The notes under the pieces were generated by a model, which was not told the DNA's origin, ran no database searches, and saw only the letters and a program-made list of their open reading frames with translations. A stretch of 21,704 bases of DNA, from positions 1-21,704 of the IMG/VR virus record IMGVR_UViG_3300003872_000058. One strand, given 5' to 3'. Made by a program: the position numbers and the translations under genes. This document shows, one piece after another, positions 5,895 through 21,704 of the stretch. The DNA comes from a virus. Each line of letters begins with the position of its first letter. The stretch's first letter is position 1.

Positions 5895-6971
5895 ATGGCG
5901 GCGGTCGACGTTCGGCGCATGGTAGGCGAGCGGCTCGGCATGGAGATGGAGCGCCAGAGCCTGCGTCCGGAAAACGTCGCACGAGAGACGGGGCTGAGCC
6001 TCGATGTGATCGAGGGTTATCTCAAGGGCCTAAGGGAGATCGATTTCAAAGAACTCGGACCGCTGTGCGAGGCGCTGGGGCAAGACGTGCTGTGGCTCGT
6101 CTCGCCGGCGTGGAAGCCGTCCAAGGTCCACTTCCGCGCCAACTTCGAACGCCGGCTTCGCGACGAGGTCCTCTCCGCCGAGCGGGCGCTGTCCCTGGTC
6201 GCCGACTTTCTCGAGCGACCGAAGAGGCCGACCGTCTCCCGCTTGCCAGACGGCGACACGGATCGCGCCCATCTGCTCATGACCCTATGGGAGCGCGTGG
6301 CGCCCCTGCGCGAGGCGCACCCGCGCGTGGAAGACCTGTACCGGGCGCACCGGTTGCCCGCGTTGCCGCGGACCATGGAGCTGGACGGGTTTCTCGTGTC
6401 CCTGGACCGATGGGCCCTGGTGTTCGCCCGGCGTGGCACCTACTCCGGTCGGGTCGAGTTCACCCTTCTGCACGAGTTCGCCCATTACGCCTTCCATCCC
6501 GAGCCGGAACCCGACCGACGCATCGAGATCGGCGCGCGCGATTTCTATCTAGATCCTGTGCCGAGGCGTGCCCTGCAGGAATGGGTGGCCAACAAGTTCG
6601 CCCAATTGTATCTGGTCCCCATGACGGTCATGGACGAGTGGGGCAAGGCCGGGCGAGAACGGGCGACGACCGAGGCCGCCCGCTACGCCGTCGAGCACGG
6701 CGTCAGCGCCGACGTGGCCGCCAACGCCCTGTGGACCCTGCTGGACACCGGGCAGCAGCTCTGGGTGCTGTACGAGGGTCACGACACGCTGCTGCCGCTG
6801 CTCGAGGCCGCGGGAGGAGACCTTCGCGGCCCGTTCCACGTTCGCGGAGACCGGTCGCATCGAGGACTTCCTGGAAGAACAGGCGAGCTCTCTCAGGCGG
6901 CGCCTGGAGGCGCGCAGGGACGAATTCTCGGAAGCGCGTTGGGAAGAAGTCATGGAAGGCCTTTTCGGTGA
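5895..6971 (+). CDS. HTH-ImmA/IrrE family metallopeptidase, probable 3' frameshift
   Basis: The N-terminal HTH (about residues 24-46, LRPENVARETGLSLDVIEGY) is followed by an ImmA/IrrE peptidase domain with the zinc motif HEFAH (193-197). Such proteins cleave or bind repressors or antitoxins and occur in phages, ICEs and TA pairs. The ATG follows AGGAGG. The literal frame stops at 6971, overlapping the next gene's GTG by 4 bp. From about 6814, though, its product turns into Gly/Arg/Ser-rich nonsense. The +1 frame instead reads EETFAARSTFAETGRIEDFL and a further acidic helical tail to TGA 6976-6978, with G/C-rich third positions. A single-base change near 6808-6816 (GCCGCGGGAGG) is the likely cause: mutation, sequencing error, or less likely programmed shifting. 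Partner: the PIN-like gene downstream. Confidence 0.8.
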   Translation: MAAVDVRRMVGERLGMEMERQSLRPENVARETGLSLDVIEGYLKGLREIDFKELGPLCEALGQDVLWLVSPAWKPSKVHFRANFERRLRDEVLSAERALSLVADFLERPKRPTVSRLPDGDTDRAHLLMTLWERVAPLREAHPRVEDLYRAHRLPALPRTMELDGFLVSLDRWALVFARRGTYSGRVEFTLLHEFAHYAFHPEPEPDRRIEIGARDFYLDPVPRRALQEWVANKFAQLYLVPMTVMDEWGKAGRERATTEAARYAVEHGVSADVAANALWTLLDTGQQLWVLYEGHDTLLPLLEAAGGDLRGPFHVRGDRSHRGLPGRTGELSQAAPGGAQGRILGSALGRSHGRPFR

Positions 6972-12056: not shown

Positions 12057-12679
12057 TCCCCGAGCCGATCCTGGACCTCGACCTCGGTCGCGATTGGGAG
12101 GCCGCCGTGCGGGAACTGGGCGCCCTGGGCGATCCCGCGCGCGTCGAGCGCGCCTTGAAGCGGGCGGTGCGCAAGCTCGCCCGCTGGGCCTTTCGGGAGA
12201 TGACGCGGCGCTACGCGCGCGAGTCCGGCGTGCCGCAGAAGACCCTGCGCCGCTACCGGCGCGTGGCCATGCGGGTGGGCGATCTGCGCGCCGACCTGTG
12301 GGCCGGCCTCGATCCCTTCCCGGCGCACGCCGCCGGGCGCGTGAGCTGGAGCCGCCGGTCCCCCGGGGCCCGGGTGCGCGGACGCCTCTTCGAAGGGGCA
12401 TTCTATCGAGCCGTGTACGGATCCGAGGCCAAGGTCTGGATTCGCGTCGCGCGCAACCGCAGCGCCCGCCTGCCTCTGTACCACCCGCCCAGGAACTGGC
12501 GACCGATGGGAGACGACGGCCCTGATCGAGGCCGTTTCCCGGTCGCCCTGGTGGCCTGGCCGGTGGCGACCGCCGCCGCGCCGCTGACGCGCGGCCTGGA
12601 GCGCGAGGCCCGCGCGCGCTTCGCCCGCCTGGCGCGGCAGGAACTCCGCTACGCCCTGGACGTGGAGGGTCGGCGGTGA
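12053..12679 (+). CDS. Minor tail protein, gpZ-like
   Basis: The 208-residue protein shows the gpZ pattern: a long basic helical N-terminal half (ALKRAVRKLARWAFREMTRR, SGVPQKTLRRYRR), a central beta part with WIRVARNRSARLPLYH, and a C-terminal helix of small and basic residues. GpZ completes the head-proximal end of the tail. Start and stop overlap its neighbours by 4 bp. The family is divergent, so the call rests on both pattern and gene order. Confidence 0.7.
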   Translation: MIPEPILDLDLGRDWEAAVRELGALGDPARVERALKRAVRKLARWAFREMTRRYARESGVPQKTLRRYRRVAMRVGDLRADLWAGLDPFPAHAAGRVSWSRRSPGARVRGRLFEGAFYRAVYGSEAKVWIRVARNRSARLPLYHPPRNWRPMGDDGPDRGRFPVALVAWPVATAAAPLTRGLEREARARFARLARQELRYALDVEGRR

Positions 12680-13172
12680 GCCTGGGCAAGATCCACGACG
12701 CCATCCTCGCCCACCTGGCGGCGCGCTTCGGCGAGCGTCTGGTGCACGTGGGCCCTTACGCCCCGGCGCCGGGCGAGGGGCTGACCACGCCGGCGGCCCT
12801 GTTCGAGATCGAGGGCTGGGAAGGGGAGGGCGGCGACGGCGCCGGACGGACCTGCCTGCGCCTGCGCTGCGCGGTGCACTGCATCCTCTCCTTGCGCACC
12901 CCCCAGGTGGCGCGCGAGGTGCGCTGGAGGACGGGCCCATCCCCGGCCTGGAAGGGCTCGCCGGACGCCCCGAGGCCGTCGCCTGCGTGCCCGGCGAGTT
13001 CCGCCCCGGGCAGGACGGCTTCGAGGCCATGGTCGTCGCCTTCGAGCTGCCGGCGGTGCTGGGCGAGTCCGTCTGGGACGGGGAGGGGATCACGCCCGTG
13101 CAGGTCTTCGCCGGCGTGGCCCCGGACATCGGTCCGCCGCACATCGACGACTACGAGGAGATCCTGGGATGA
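12676..13172 (+). pseudogene. gpU-like tail terminator gene with a reading-frame break
   Basis: The start at GTG 12676 (VSLGKIHDAILAHLAARFGE) gives a normal coding sequence up to about residue 83 (TPQVAREVR). After that the frame becomes Ser/Pro-rich nonsense. From about 12924 the -1 frame takes over (LEDGPIPGLEGLAGRPEAVA, then FEAMVVAFELPAVLGESVWD) and runs to TGA 13170-13172, overlapping the lysozyme ATG. Joined, the two parts give about 165 residues, the size of gpU-type proteins found between gpZ and the lysis or baseplate genes. The break lies in GTGCGCTGGAGG. Sequencing error, mutation or frameshifting cannot be told apart here. The family call is by size and position. Confidence 0.55.
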
Positions 13173-16703: not shown

Positions 16704-18148
16704 TGGCCAATCTCGTCGAAAGCGCGACTTGGGAGACCGGCGTCTATCAGCTCGAGACGACCGATCCGGTGGTGGGCGGCCCGGACGGCGTCTCCAACCT
16801 GCAAGCGAAGCAGCTGGCCAACAGAACGCTCTGGCTCAAGCAGCAGGTGGACGCCCTGAACGTGGACGTGAGCGCCATCCAGGCGGACTACGTCTCCCAG
16901 GGCGAGGTGGGCACGGCGGCGAACCAGATCCCCCGCCGCGACGCCGCCGCCAAGATCCCCGGCGACCTGGCCGGCAACGCCGCCACCGCCGATCGCTGGC
17001 GCACCGCGCGCATCATGACCGTCAAGCTCTCGGGAGACGCCTCGGGCAGCGCCTCGGTGTACGTCTCCGGCGCCGCCAATTGGATCGTCGACGTGTTCGC
17101 CAACGTGCTGCGCGCCGACGACGCCGCCACCCTGGACGGCTGGCCGGTGCGTTCCGCCGTCTCCGGCAACGCTTGGGGCTACGTCCCGCTGGTGAAGACG
17201 GACGGCGTGATGGAAGTCGGGCGCTACATCGACTTCCATCATACGAGCGCCGATTCCATCGACTATGCCGCCCGCCTGCACACCGACGGCAGCGGCAACG
17301 GTCGTCTGTACGTCAACGGCTCGCGCATCGTCACCGAGAACGGCGGTCGCGCGCCCGACGCGGCCAAGCTCATGGGGCGCGCGCCCGGCAACGCATCGGG
17401 CGACGTGCCGGTGTCCAACGGCGCGCGCTGCGTCGATCTCAACGCCGACCGACTGGACGGCTACCACGCCAGCGCTACCGCCGCCGCCTCCACCATCCCC
17501 GTGCGCGACGGCGCCGGACGCCTGCCCGGCGACGTCACCGGCAACGCCGCCACCGCCGACCGCTGGCGCGTCGCGCGCACCCTCAGCCTGAGCGGCGACG
17601 CCACCGGCTCCGTGTCCATCGACGGGTCCGGCTCTGCGACCCTGCCGGTGACGGTGAAGAACGATTCCCACGCCCATGGCCGCACCACCACGTACCAGGA
17701 CGCCCTGGAAGCCGTATGGAGCGAGATCGCCACCTTGCCGCAGAGTACGTCGCGGACGATCACTACGGCCTGGCGGCAGCTCTTTTCCATCAGCATCCCG
17801 TATCAGGTCGTTTCCGCCTCGCGCACCGTCCTCGCCTTCGACGTCTTTCCTTTCTTCGCCTCCGGGACGGGGCTGGACACGGAGATCGTCCTCAAGTTCG
17901 ACTTCTACGACCTGTTCATGACCGCCGGTCAGTCGCGCTACGTGTACAAGGTGCTGCCGCTCTACTCCCTGATGGGATCCAACGTCACCTTGCACGCGGG
18001 CTTCTCCCTGACGCGCTCCAGCTACGGGCCCAATCCGAGCGTGACCGTGTCCGCGCGCCTGCGCTCAGGGACGGCCAATCCGGTCATGGACACGGCCAAG
18101 ATCGTCTGCCACGCCTACAACGCCATCGACGGAACCTGGAGGTATTGA
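16703..18148 (+). CDS. Tail fibre protein (P2 gpH position)
   Basis: The 481-residue protein has an N-terminal baseplate-attachment part, then two copies of a fibre repeat (IPxRDxAxxxPGDLAGNAATADRW, at about residues 77-118 and 266-306), joined by a segment with the LDGW/DRLDGYHAS motif. The C-terminal about 150 residues are different and probably make the receptor-binding head. Fibre repeats of the GNAATADRWRTAR kind are common in prophage fibres. There is no fibre-assembly chaperone gene after it; the sheath gene follows directly. The receptor specificity cannot be read from the sequence. Confidence 0.8.
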   Translation: MANLVESATWETGVYQLETTDPVVGGPDGVSNLQAKQLANRTLWLKQQVDALNVDVSAIQADYVSQGEVGTAANQIPRRDAAAKIPGDLAGNAATADRWRTARIMTVKLSGDASGSASVYVSGAANWIVDVFANVLRADDAATLDGWPVRSAVSGNAWGYVPLVKTDGVMEVGRYIDFHHTSADSIDYAARLHTDGSGNGRLYVNGSRIVTENGGRAPDAAKLMGRAPGNASGDVPVSNGARCVDLNADRLDGYHASATAAASTIPVRDGAGRLPGDVTGNAATADRWRVARTLSLSGDATGSVSIDGSGSATLPVTVKNDSHAHGRTTTYQDALEAVWSEIATLPQSTSRTITTAWRQLFSISIPYQVVSASRTVLAFDVFPFFASGTGLDTEIVLKFDFYDLFMTAGQSRYVYKVLPLYSLMGSNVTLHAGFSLTRSSYGPNPSVTVSARLRSGTANPVMDTAKIVCHAYNAIDGTWRY

Positions 18149-18149
18149 C

Positions 18150-19319
18150 ATGGCCTACCTGCACGGCATCGAACTCATCGAACTGGACGGCGGCGCGCGC
18201 CCGGTGCGCACCGTACGCTCCTCCGTCATCGGCGTGGTCGGCACAGCCCCCGCCGCCGACCCCGCCGCCTTCCCCGAGAACACGCCGGTGCTGGTGGCCG
18301 GCTCGCGCCTGGAGGCGGCCAAGCTGGACACCGCCGGCACCGGCGCGGGCACCCTGCCGGCGGCCCTGGACGGCATCCTCGACCAGGCCGGCGCGACGGT
18401 GGTGGTGGTGCGCGTGCCCGAAGGCGCCAACGACGCGGAGACCCAGTCCAACGTCATCGGCGGGGTGGACGCGGCCACCGGCCAGTACAAGGGCGCGCAG
18501 GCCCTGCTGGCGGCGGAGAGCGCCCTGGGCGTCACTCCGCGCATCCTCTGCGCCCCCGGCTTCACCCAGGTGCAGGCGGTGGCCGACGCGTTGATCTCCA
18601 TCGCCCAGCGCCTGCGCGCCGTCGTCGTCGCCGACGGTCCCGACGCCACCGACGCCGACGCCATCGCCTACCGCGCCGCGTTCGGCTCCGACCGCCTGTA
18701 CCTGGTCGACCCCTGGGTGCGGGTATGGGACGCCGCAGCCGGCGCCGAGCGCACGGAACCGGCCTCGGCGCGGGTGGCCGGCCTCATCGCCAAGACCGAC
18801 GCCGAGCGAGGGTTCTGGTGGAGCCCTTCCAATCAGCCGCTGGCCGGCGTGCTCGGCACCACCCGACCGGTGGACTTCGCCCTGGGCGACGCGAGCGCCC
18901 GCGCCAACGTGCTCAACGAGAACGAGATCGCCACCGTCATCCAGAAGGACGGGTTCCGCCTCTGGGGCAACCGCACCACCGCCGCGGATCCCAAGTTCGC
19001 CTTCCTGTCCGTGCGCCGCACCGCGGACATGATCAACGAATCGCTCCTCCAGGCGCACCTGTGGGCGGTGGACCGCAACATCACCAAGACCTACGTGGAC
19101 GACGTGCTGGAGAGCGTGCGCGGATATCTGAGCCATCTGAAGGCGCAAGGGGCGATCGTCGACGGCTCCGTGTGGGCCGACCCGGACCTGAACGGCCCGC
19201 AGGCCATCGCCCAGGGGCAGGTCTATTTCGACTTCGATTTCACTCCCCCTTATCCGGCCGAGCACATCACCATGCGCTCGCGCCTCGTCAACGACTACCT
19301 GGGCGCCCTGGTGGCGTAA
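18150..19319 (+). CDS. Tail sheath protein FI
   Basis: The 389-residue contractile sheath subunit shows the family's N-terminal HGIELIELDGGARPVRTVRS with SSVIGVVGTAP, then VTPRILCAPGFTQVQAVADA, and the conserved C-terminal domain (RLWGNRTTAADPKFAFLSVR, then INESLLQAHLWAVDRNITKT). It shortens on contraction and drives the tube into the cell. The gene has a strong GGAGGT ribosome-binding site, as expected for an abundant protein. Confidence 0.96.
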   Translation: MAYLHGIELIELDGGARPVRTVRSSVIGVVGTAPAADPAAFPENTPVLVAGSRLEAAKLDTAGTGAGTLPAALDGILDQAGATVVVVRVPEGANDAETQSNVIGGVDAATGQYKGAQALLAAESALGVTPRILCAPGFTQVQAVADALISIAQRLRAVVVADGPDATDADAIAYRAAFGSDRLYLVDPWVRVWDAAAGAERTEPASARVAGLIAKTDAERGFWWSPSNQPLAGVLGTTRPVDFALGDASARANVLNENEIATVIQKDGFRLWGNRTTAADPKFAFLSVRRTADMINESLLQAHLWAVDRNITKTYVDDVLESVRGYLSHLKAQGAIVDGSVWADPDLNGPQAIAQGQVYFDFDFTPPYPAEHITMRSRLVNDYLGALVA

Positions 19320-19328
19320 GGAGGCGAC

Positions 19329-19871
19329 ATGCTCAAGCACATCCTCAAAGACCTGAACCTGACCGTGGACGGGCGCGGCTACGCCGGGCGCGTCGAGGAG
19401 CTGGTGCCGCCCAAGCTCACCGTGAAGACCGAAGACGTCCGCGCCGGCGGCATGGACGCCCCCGTGCAGGTGGACATGGGCATGGAAGCGCTCACCTGCG
19501 AGTTCACCCTGGTGGACTACGACCCGGACGTGCTCGCTCTGTTCGGGCTCGCGCCCGGCGCCACCACCCAGCTCACCATGCGCGGGGCGGTGGAGGACGA
19601 GTTCTCCGGCACGGTGCGCCCGGTCGTCGTGAACGTGCGCGGGCGCGTCAAGGAGCTGGACCCCGGTACCTGGAAGCCCGGAGAGAAGACCACGCTCAAG
19701 GCGACCATGGCGCTCACCTACTACAAGCTCGTCCATGACGGGCGCGAGCTGCACGAGATCGACGTGCCCAACATGGTGCGCAGGATCGACGGCGTGGACC
19801 AGCTCGCCGCCCGCCGCGTCTATCTGCTCCTCTCCGGACGCATCCGACCGTTGCGGAGGAAGGGGAAATGA
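19329..19871 (+). CDS. Major tail tube protein FII
   Basis: The 180-residue tube subunit fits the P2 FII family: LKDLNLTVDGRGYAGRVEEL near the start, LPPKLTVKTEDVRAGGM-like segment, VQVDMGMEALTCEFTLVDYD, and the late TLKATMALTYYKLVHDGREL. It polymerises on the baseplate inside the sheath. An AAGGAGG ribosome-binding site lies just upstream. The stop overlaps the ATG of a predicted lipoprotein gene, unlike P2 where the tail chaperone E follows. Confidence 0.94.
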   Translation: MLKHILKDLNLTVDGRGYAGRVEELVPPKLTVKTEDVRAGGMDAPVQVDMGMEALTCEFTLVDYDPDVLALFGLAPGATTQLTMRGAVEDEFSGTVRPVVVNVRGRVKELDPGTWKPGEKTTLKATMALTYYKLVHDGRELHEIDVPNMVRRIDGVDQLAARRVYLLLSGRIRPLRRKGK

Positions 19872-20125
19872 AGCGGACCTGGCTCCTCGTCGCCGGCCTG
19901 CTGGCCGCCTGTCAGCAGCCGGGCGGTTCCATGACCCTGGCCGTCTGCCTCGACGGCGACGAGATCGCCGCTCTGCGCGAGCACTGTCTCGGCCCGGCGC
20001 AGCCCGTCGACGGCGTCGAGTGGCGGTACGATCCGGAAGCCTGTCGCGCCGTGCGCGTCGATCTCGCTTGCGACGATCCTGACGGCGGCGCCATGGGCGT
20101 GCTCGCCTTGGAGGCGCGTCCGTGA
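19868..20125 (+). CDS. Small predicted lipoprotein inside the tail operon
   Basis: The 85-residue product starts MKRTWLLVAGLLAAC: a short positively charged end, a hydrophobic core, and a lipobox LAAC with Cys15. The residue after Cys is Gln, so outer-membrane sorting is expected. Four more cysteines (27, 40, 59, 68) in the mature part could form two disulfides in the periplasm. It overlaps tail tube FII by 4 bp at the start and the next gene by 4 bp at the end, so it is translated with the virion proteins. It matches no family I know. Small phage lipoproteins such as T5 Llp block superinfection; another option is a lysis or virion-entry role. All of these are inference. Confidence 0.6.
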   Translation: MKRTWLLVAGLLAACQQPGGSMTLAVCLDGDEIAALREHCLGPAQPVDGVEWRYDPEACRAVRVDLACDDPDGGAMGVLALEARP

Positions 20126-20649
20126 TCGCGGCGGCGGATCTGGTCGGTACGGTGGAGATCGTCGATCGGGTGCCCACGCGCACCGGCGTCATCGTCGACG
20201 CGCGCGTGGAAGACCCCGTCCTGGGCCGCATCGACGATGTGCGCCTCGCCGCGCCCGCCGCCGCCATGGCTTGGGACGCCGCGACCCTGACGGACTGGGT
20301 GCGCCAGGTCATGGAACGGCGCGCGGCGCGCACCCTGGAGCGCGAGATCGACGAGGTCGTCGAGGCGCTGCGCCGCGGCGAGAACCCCTTGCGCGACGGG
20401 AACGGCAACCTGCGCGGCACCGCCCATCTGCCCTACGCAGATGCGGCCGCCGCCACGTACCGGCGCCTGTCCGCATCCACCGCCGCCCGCGACCGCATCG
20501 TCGCCGCCGGCATCGTGCAGGCCCTCGACGACGCCGAGCTGACCGCGGTCACCGGCCTCGACGCCGCCGGCATCCAGGCCCTCCGCGACCAGGCCGCCGC
20601 CGCGCTCCAGGCCGCTGCGCTGATGCGGCAGGCCGGGGGAGAATGGTGA
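20122..20649 (+). CDS. Unknown phage protein in tail operon
   Basis: The 175-residue product starts at GTG 20122 (overlap GTGA). A beta-rich N-terminal part (LVGTVEIVDRVPTRTGVIVD and ARVEDPVLGRIDDVRLAAP) is followed by helices rich in Ala, Arg and Glu (WVRQVMERRAARTLEREIDE and VVEALRRGENPL) and two helical Ala-rich stretches. No cysteine, signal peptide or membrane segment is seen. I do not recognise a family. Its position after tube FII and before a large surface-like protein suggests a tail assembly or adaptor role; it lies where a tail chaperone would be expected but does not resemble gpE. Confidence 0.6.
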   Translation: MIAAADLVGTVEIVDRVPTRTGVIVDARVEDPVLGRIDDVRLAAPAAAMAWDAATLTDWVRQVMERRAARTLEREIDEVVEALRRGENPLRDGNGNLRGTAHLPYADAAAATYRRLSASTAARDRIVAAGIVQALDDAELTAVTGLDAAGIQALRDQAAAALQAAALMRQAGGEW

Positions 20650-21704
20650 TGGCCGTCTGGTACGTCGATCCGGTCAACGGGGCGTCGACCAACGGCGGCA
20701 CGAGCTGGACGGACGCGGTGGACACGCCGGCCAACCTGCCGCCGGTGGCCGCCAACGGCGTCCTGGACCCGGGCGACGTGGTGAAGCTCGCCAACACCGG
20801 ACGCGTCGCCGGGCAGATCTCCGATTGGACGCCGGACCTATCCGCCGGTCCGTTGGTGGCCTTCGTCGGCTACGATCCGGCCACCGATACGCCTCTGCCT
20901 GCGCCCGACCTCGCCGGCGTGGCGAACTACGGCGGATTCGGGGCGGTGAACGCTTATTGCGAGGCGATCCTTCTGCAGCAACAGACGAACGATTACTGGT
21001 TCGCCCTCGGCGGATACCGCGCCGGCGGTCAGCTGCTCGTCGCTCGTCGCTGCGCTATCGCCCAGAAGCCGAGTTCCGGCGTGAACGTCGCCGCGCGCAG
21101 CAACGCCAACGTCGCCCCGTCGAGAGCGATTCTCGACGACTGCTCCGTCACCGCGAACGGGCCGGTCAAGGTGTTCGAGGGCGCCGAGCTGGTCATGCGC
21201 GGCGGGACGCTCGCCGGCATCGACGGCGTGGACGGCGCGCTCCTCGTCGATCAGGGCGTGCTGCGTCTCGCCGGCGTCGACGTCTCGGCGATGACGACGG
21301 GGGCGCTGGTGGACTGCCGAGGCGGCCTCGCCGAGATCGACGTCGTCGGTCTGCCGGCAGGCGCGAGCCTCTTCTCTTCGGCGTCGCCGCCGACGGCCGC
21401 GCCGGGACGCGTCGTCGTGCGCGGTCGCGACTTCTACGCCGGCATCGACGACGCAGGCACCTGGGACCTGACCACCGCCGTCTTCCGAACCGGCGGCGCG
21501 GTCTTGTCCGACGGCGCGCCCGTGGCCCTGATCGCCGGCACCGCCTCCGCGCTGCAGCCCGGCATCCGCGCCAGCGAGATCGTCCTGTCCGAGTCTCTGC
21601 CGCTCGACCTGACCGCGGACCGCACCCTCTCCATCCATCTCGCCCAGCCTGCCGGCGCGACGGCCCTCACCACGCAAGAGGCGTGGCTGACGGTGGAGAT
21701 CGAG
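20649..21704 (+). CDS. Beta-helix-like phage protein, possible tail spike (3' end outside window)
   Basis: The frame is open to the last base, giving at least 352 residues. ATG 20649 shares its A with the preceding stop and lies 6 nt after GGGGGAG; an upstream in-frame ATG at 20643 is less likely. The N-terminus (MAVWYVDPVNGASTNGGTSW, then LDPGDVVKLANTG) is like the start of pectate-lyase-type right-handed beta-helix proteins. The middle has the repetitive short-strand pattern of such folds (CSVTANGPVKVFEGAELVMR, GTLAGIDGVDGALLVDQGVL). Beta-helix proteins in phages are often spikes or depolymerases. It could also be a virion decoration protein. No catalytic residues can be named. Confidence 0.55.
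   Translation, partial: MAVWYVDPVNGASTNGGTSWTDAVDTPANLPPVAANGVLDPGDVVKLANTGRVAGQISDWTPDLSAGPLVAFVGYDPATDTPLPAPDLAGVANYGGFGAVNAYCEAILLQQQTNDYWFALGGYRAGGQLLVARRCAIAQKPSSGVNVAARSNANVAPSRAILDDCSVTANGPVKVFEGAELVMRGGTLAGIDGVDGALLVDQGVLRLAGVDVSAMTTGALVDCRGGLAEIDVVGLPAGASLFSSASPPTAAPGRVVVRGRDFYAGIDDAGTWDLTTAVFRTGGAVLSDGAPVALIAGTASALQPGIRASEIVLSESLPLDLTADRTLSIHLAQPAGATALTTQEAWLTVEIE

Follow-up and report, generated by a model that had tools for sequence, protein, structure and literature searches.

A predicted lipoprotein gene directly after the tail tube gene in a virus record with a P2-type contractile tail

The tail cluster of phage P2 carries an inserted exclusion gene, Z/fun, to which the gene described here can be likened by position, both lying in a P2-type tail cluster on opposite sides of the sheath gene. 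Z/fun is listed as a phage exclusion gene in PMC3091744. The mEpimmI lipoproteins Lpp021 and Lpp010 are described as encoded in the structural gene cluster and as excluding phages when expressed, with neither of them excluding mEp013 (PMC11893012). The Llp gene of T5 is described as adjoining the receptor-binding gene pb5 on its downstream side; Llp acts on FhuA, the abstract gives the sparing of phages from fragments of lysed cells as its rationale, and the title of one reference calls Llp "expressed early during infection" (PMC9586334). Rtp45 of phage Rtp is reported as a small lipoprotein with a disulfide that acts on LptDE and alters LptD, so that the phage's own binding protein cannot bind (PMC12685063). 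For LysC of P2-like phages, a Pro content of 9.5-9.7% is given (PMC3091744). Since lipoproteins that lie in structural clusters and exclude phages are already in print for mEpimmI, the kind is known; what is new in the present case is the unusual position and that no relatives were found. Among literature titles and the opening parts of abstracts, no lipoprotein between FII and the tail chaperone was recognised.

The window analysed was the whole virus record of 21,704 bases, with a G+C content of 0.71. Pfam matches in the record were terminase gpA, a lambda-type portal, a ClpP-protease/capsid fusion, a cement protein, a lysozyme and a holin with three TM segments, together with the P2-type baseplate and tail genes V, W, J and I followed by sheath FI and tube FII; PHROGs placed a fibre-like protein between I and the sheath. 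The family of the tube gene is labelled "head closure" in PHROGs, and the Pfam naming was preferred, together with that of the annotated phages PPpW-3, AcaML1, Persinger and Mano. The record is of temperate type, with KilA-N genes and a toxin-antitoxin-like pair. The features at its right end were as follows:

19329-19871, + strand: tail tube gene FII (Pfam Phage_tube, E 4.8e-59)
19818-19871, + strand: altered tube tail VYLLLSGRIRPLRRKGK, the last 17 tube codons and the stop codon
19855-19859, + strand: GGAGG ribosome site of the lipoprotein gene, 8 nt upstream of its ATG and inside the altered tube 3' end
19868-20125, + strand: predicted lipoprotein gene, 85 aa (coding score, ribosome site, lipobox rule)
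19868-19912, + strand: predicted signal peptide and lipobox LAAC, codons 1-15 (rule-based call)
20110-20114, + strand: GGAGG, 7 nt upstream of the GTG of the 175-aa gene
20122-20649, + strand: orphan 175-aa protein, its GTG start overlapping the lipoprotein stop
20649-21704, + strand: beta-helix-like ORF, running off the record end (N-terminal likeness to an annotated beta-helix protein)

The tube stop shared ATGA (19868-19871) with the lipoprotein start and the lipoprotein stop shared GTGA (20122-20125) with the next start, giving a 4-bp overlap on each side, while no GGAGG-like site preceded the in-frame Met22 (19931). By a codon score whose training set was 11 genes of the record, the annotated frame came out best of six across 19868-20125. 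With stop codons left out, the frame scored 0.170 nats per codon (0.127 with the stop), above all 360 wrong-frame controls (99th percentile -0.038, maximum 0.130) and just under the 5th percentile (0.181) of 72 right-frame segments from the 11 genes (minimum -0.008, median 0.414), which places it at the low edge for genes of this record.

The N-terminus of the protein, MKRTWLLVAGLLAAC, showed by rule the positive n-region, the hydrophobic h-region and the lipobox ending in Cys that characterise a bacterial lipoprotein. The rule was custom-written, in place of SignalP, and was applied to start codons opening frames of 40 aa or more. In its strict form, the lipoprotein ORF was the only match among 940 starts in the window, compared with 42 distinct matches among 127,841 start codons in 208 related loci (some overlapping), several of them apparently genuine Rz1-type genes; the signal is therefore not what chance usually gives. 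The residue after the lipobox Cys15 was Gln, which points to the outer membrane by the Lol rule of E. coli. Cysteines stood at residues 15, 27, 40, 59 and 68, that is, the lipobox Cys and four more. This content (5 of 85 residues) compares with 26 cysteines among the 4407 residues of 15 other genes in the record, the terminase supplying 12 of them, and a binomial estimate for at least four cysteines in the mature part, computed post hoc on the sequence already seen, was 8e-4. No CxxC pair was present in the protein, and the enrichment in its absence suggests a periplasmic location. The mature part of 71 aa contained 6 Pro (8.5%), 13 acidic and 5 basic residues, with a computed pI of 4.2. The best explanation of the coding, ribosome-site and lipobox evidence is that 19868-20125 is a genuine gene whose product is a small exported lipoprotein, export and lipidation being predicted.

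No family reached the curated cut-off in Pfam, PHROGs, NCBIfam or PADLOC. Far below cut-off, NCBIfam gave RlpA (E 0.031, residues 1-59) and a lipoprotein-signal model (E 0.047, residues 1-13), both of which cover the signal peptide. At the sensitivity used, the phage, plasmid, IMG/VR and GTDB collections yielded no credible relative. The tblastn matches in phages (2 records at E 10) and in plasmids (1 record at E 0.03, 34.8% over 81% of the query) were judged to be chance, the latter lying in a 4.8-Mb E. coli record near mdtM, in a stretch without a listed gene in an incomplete gene table. The IMG/VR and GTDB scans, which require exact short peptides and could miss remote relatives, gave 20 and 297 pattern stretches, none of them confirmed. 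A search of the whole records of 29 tube or sheath relatives (19 virus records and 10 genomes) found 6 with matches at E 1 or below, the best at 0.017; these were judged to be chance from their E-values and their short, partial extent. A phmmer search of the PDB at E 10 or below returned only VEGF receptor 2 (E 0.43), which is unrelated, and the AlphaFold model was too poor to use (pLDDT 46). The initial annotation had described a LAAC lipobox protein with four mature cysteines and no recognised family, coupled by 4-bp overlaps to the tube gene and the next gene, and all of this was borne out, the signal peptide by the strict rule.

Comparison of the tube gene with its relatives used 208 loci related to tube or sheath from two viral scans and one genome scan, which are not independent samples (the tube scans kept the best 80 of 391 and the best 80 of 99, and many genome loci are Pseudomonas prophages, and a few of the loci overlap). 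A tube gene was present in 206 of the 208. Its usual ending consists of D, any residue, an L-like residue, three residues, Arg, two residues, a hydrophobic residue, Gly, one residue and the stop, as in DQLAATRSALGI. This ending was shared by 204 of the 206 tubes, 186 of which fitted a regular expression with nothing after it and 18 more of which were assigned by eye; the other two (L193 and L196) carried 21 further residues. The window tube continues as DQLAARR-VYLLLSGRIRPLRRKGK, departing from the relatives after about nt 19817 and reading on where the 204 stop about five residues past the Arg. The segment 19818-19871 is, on this comparison, likely the left boundary of an accessory block.

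Of the 182 relatives for which 2.5 kb or more follows the tube, 181 had an ORF of 450 aa or longer beginning 381-1158 nt behind it; the median over all 182 was 475 nt. The exception was L147, whose long ORF began at 4062 nt; what resembled a large insert ahead of it turned out to hold a second tube gene, and the locus (L147:7794-8875, on a Marinibactrum halimedae contig) holds two tandem tail-tube-like genes. The examples checked after the tube matched Phage_TAC_7, the tail assembly chaperone (L163 and L010), and PhageMin_Tail, a tape measure (L163). In PPpW-3, AcaML1, Persinger and Mano, the sheath and tube genes are followed by one small gene and then by a long one, which the annotation calls a tape measure in AcaML1 and Mano and a tail protein in PPpW-3 and Persinger. 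Many relatives had a small protein of about 48-94 aa between tube and chaperone (e.g. L002:1834-2052 and L010:6505-6651), of the type YYVIKPT...ARPLRNGGFI or ...NSRQAKYLLLSGH, the L010 example having no Pfam match. The strict rule detected no plus-strand lipoprotein signal in the first 2 kb behind the tube in any of the 206 relatives, 186 of which could be followed over that whole distance. A looser rule matched, besides the window gene, only L166 and L168, in near-identical arginine-rich frames 1005 nt after the tube that were judged spurious. About 5 kb after the tube of L196, near the contig end, a lipobox protein with a DUF1375 match was seen (L196:7199-7477).

In the window, the 1833 nt after the tube held the lipoprotein gene, the orphan 175-aa gene and the ORF running off the record end, and this 1.8 kb, which the lipoprotein gene opens, had no counterpart in the relatives. 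Searches at E 10 or below found no match to the chaperone (PF10109) or to the tape-measure family (PF10145) anywhere in the record. None of the long post-tube ORFs of 186 relatives matched the window at E 0.01 or below, whereas the long ORF of L163 matched 136 of the 186. When 999 mechanical ORFs of 60-130 aa from behind the tube in relatives served as queries, three matched these 1833 nt at E 0.001-0.009, a yield that chance would give with so many queries. The 175-aa protein gave a Pfam match to Abhydrolase_10 below cut-off (21.6 bits against 23, E 1.2e-4), judged spurious, and no relatives in phages or IMG/VR. Its matches in genomes numbered 0 of 274, 0 of 300 and 2 of 289 (L218 and L219), that in L218 being a frame antisense to a GTPase-like ORF.

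The third ORF begins M-AVWYVDPVNGASTNGGTSWTDA. Across 72,556 plasmid records it had one match, to the N-terminus of a Haloferax plasmid protein (46% identity over query residues 2-49, E 0.6) that starts MTTYYVDPANGNNSNSGTSLNDA and is annotated as a right-handed parallel beta-helix. The match is a hint that the ORF, two genes downstream of the lipoprotein gene, may be an adhesin or tailspike. Family, fold, phage and PDB searches yielded nothing of use, and no relatives appeared in phages or IMG/VR at the limits used. One of 300 genomes matched (L220, E 9.9e-4) in a frame holding ABC-transporter-like sequence, judged to be chance; the first 64 residues matched 7 phage records at E 2-9, including one head fiber protein at E 9, which is not evidence. 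The AlphaFold model was too poor (pLDDT 37), and a Foldseek search with it gave nothing at E below 6. The start of the ORF, 778 nt behind the tube, falls inside the interval where the long ORF of the relatives begins; an insertion is therefore not demonstrated by spacing, and the case for one rests on sequence. As the ORF starts where relatives may begin the tape measure, it may instead be an extremely diverged tape-measure replacement.

The best reading of the locus is a late accessory block with an outer-membrane lipoprotein. The lipoprotein, the 175-aa protein and the beta-helix-like protein would have been acquired together by recombination at the tube stop, and the lipoprotein gene would be transcribed with the tail operon and hence late; the right-hand limit of such a block falls beyond the record. 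Late expression is drawn from the overlaps and from the lack of any match to a sigma-70-type promoter or terminator in 18100-21704, a weak test in a G+C-rich record; the missing matches are compatible with late co-expression. The earlier proposal of late expression rather than a lysogenic promoter gains this much from the promoter search, but a place in the tail operon is no proof of late-only expression. The use of T5 Llp as a late parallel became doubtful with the reference title that calls Llp early (PMC9586334), and the debris-sparing rationale does not need late expression.

The likeliest job of the lipoprotein, by analogy, is receptor blocking or superinfection exclusion, which is proposed tentatively and at somewhat less than an even chance. 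This function is favoured by the precedent of the mEpimmI lipoproteins, Rtp45 and Llp. Sec would export the protein, which would carry its lipid on Cys15, be directed to the outer membrane by Gln at +2 and gain stability from two disulfides. From the periplasmic side it would bind a surface receptor, so that phage adsorption or DNA entry fails; the producer cell would be spared a second infection and progeny would not be wasted on debris, as is described for Llp and Rtp45. Two genes further on, the beta-helix-like ORF would perhaps encode the matching adhesin. If it does, the block pairs an adhesin with a lipoprotein and resembles T5, where Llp lies beside pb5.

Like the window protein, Lpp021 and Lpp010 are lipobox proteins of temperate phages with genes within the structural cluster (PMC11893012); as described there, they come from E. 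coli siphophages and their exclusion was tested, whereas the window has a P2-type contractile tail and a gene beside the tube, the likeness being one of description. With T5 Llp and Cor the protein has in common that it is a small phage lipoprotein, here with a possible adhesin gene nearby; however, Llp is described as early and its gene as directly downstream of a proven receptor-binding gene, whereas the neighbours in the window are the tube gene and an orphan. Rtp45 is likewise a small disulfide lipoprotein, but with one disulfide (Cys30-Cys38), compared with four extra cysteines here, and with a known receptor (LptDE); it had no sequence match to the window lipoprotein in the searches run. 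In database searches of PHROGs, Pfam and PADLOC, the lipoprotein had no match to Llp, Cor, Rtp45 or any other exclusion protein at E 1 or below. A further step, that a mobile cassette of an adhesin and a receptor-blocking lipoprotein inserts between tube and chaperone in contractile-tail phages, so that a single step alters the host range and brings in the self-exclusion that matches it, with the lipoprotein founding a new four-cysteine exclusion family, is speculative and improbable.

Other explanations start from the same gene. A moron, that is, a lysogenic-conversion or fitness lipoprotein that alters the host envelope for reasons other than exclusion, is unlikely, though it would suit an orphan lipoprotein in a temperate-type record, and other lipoprotein-like genes occur near the tail genes of relatives, such as the DUF1375 one in L196 and a minus-strand one in L014; however, no promoter of its own was seen (weak test), and the overlaps on both sides tie the gene to the late genes. 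Its product could also be no lipoprotein at all: translation would then begin at Met22 or the lipobox be fortuitous, and the protein would be small and either cytoplasmic or an accessory part of the fibre or tail block. The neighbours are known or presumed structural genes, other kinds of small genes occupy the slot between tube and chaperone in many relatives, no relatives were found to show conservation of the signal, and the mature part matches nothing. Against these points stand the single strict signal in 940 starts, the strong ribosome site at the ATG (19868) with none at Met22, and the cysteine enrichment without a CxxC pair, which suggests the periplasm; such a protein is slightly less probable than a moron.

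Misassembly, in which a foreign or host segment was joined to the phage contig and the lipoprotein gene lies outside the tail operon, would explain why the tube 3' end leaves its relatives exactly where the unknown genes begin, at the contig end, and why chaperone and tape measure are not found in the record. The junction itself, however, has clean 4-bp overlaps with ribosome sites and an unbroken tube ORF, and the G+C content (0.727, compared with 0.71 for the record) is similar; an artefact is quite improbable. Even less probable is an o-spanin, an outer-membrane spanin subunit (Rz1 or LysC-like) that fuses membranes at lysis. The small size and the 6 Pro in 71 mature residues resemble the LysC/Rz1 o-spanins, being near the Pro content given for P2-like LysC (PMC3091744), and the record has lysozyme and holin genes and no Rz/Rz1 pair recognised in its ORF list. 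Such o-spanins are described in the lysis cassette, overlapping LysB, unlike the window gene, which lies 6 kb from the lysis genes; the ORF list and Pfam showed no i-spanin neighbour and no plausible overlapping inner-membrane partner, and the protein is acidic, with four cysteines and no family match.

If the favoured exclusion function is true, an unrelated lipoprotein joins the receptor-blocking kind, the tight order of tube, chaperone and tape measure in P2-type tails can admit accessory genes, and exclusion genes travelling with adhesins are suggested; if it is false, the gene is an ordinary orphan accessory gene.

Several other features of the record were observed. Two KilA-N genes (1-897 and 1967-2842) have a long similar stretch in common by eye, and an HTH/ParE-type toxin-antitoxin-like pair lies between them on the minus strand (1217-1961). 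Between terminase and portal, 5895-6971 encodes an HTH and M78 (IrrE-like) protein that matched the PADLOC CapP model (E 3.7e-10). In the tail region, a gene at 12676-13172 is apparently split by a frameshift into overlapping + frames, one from 12676 onward and one at 12987-13172, which by eye resemble the start and the end of one protein like that of ORF 10 of PPpW-3.
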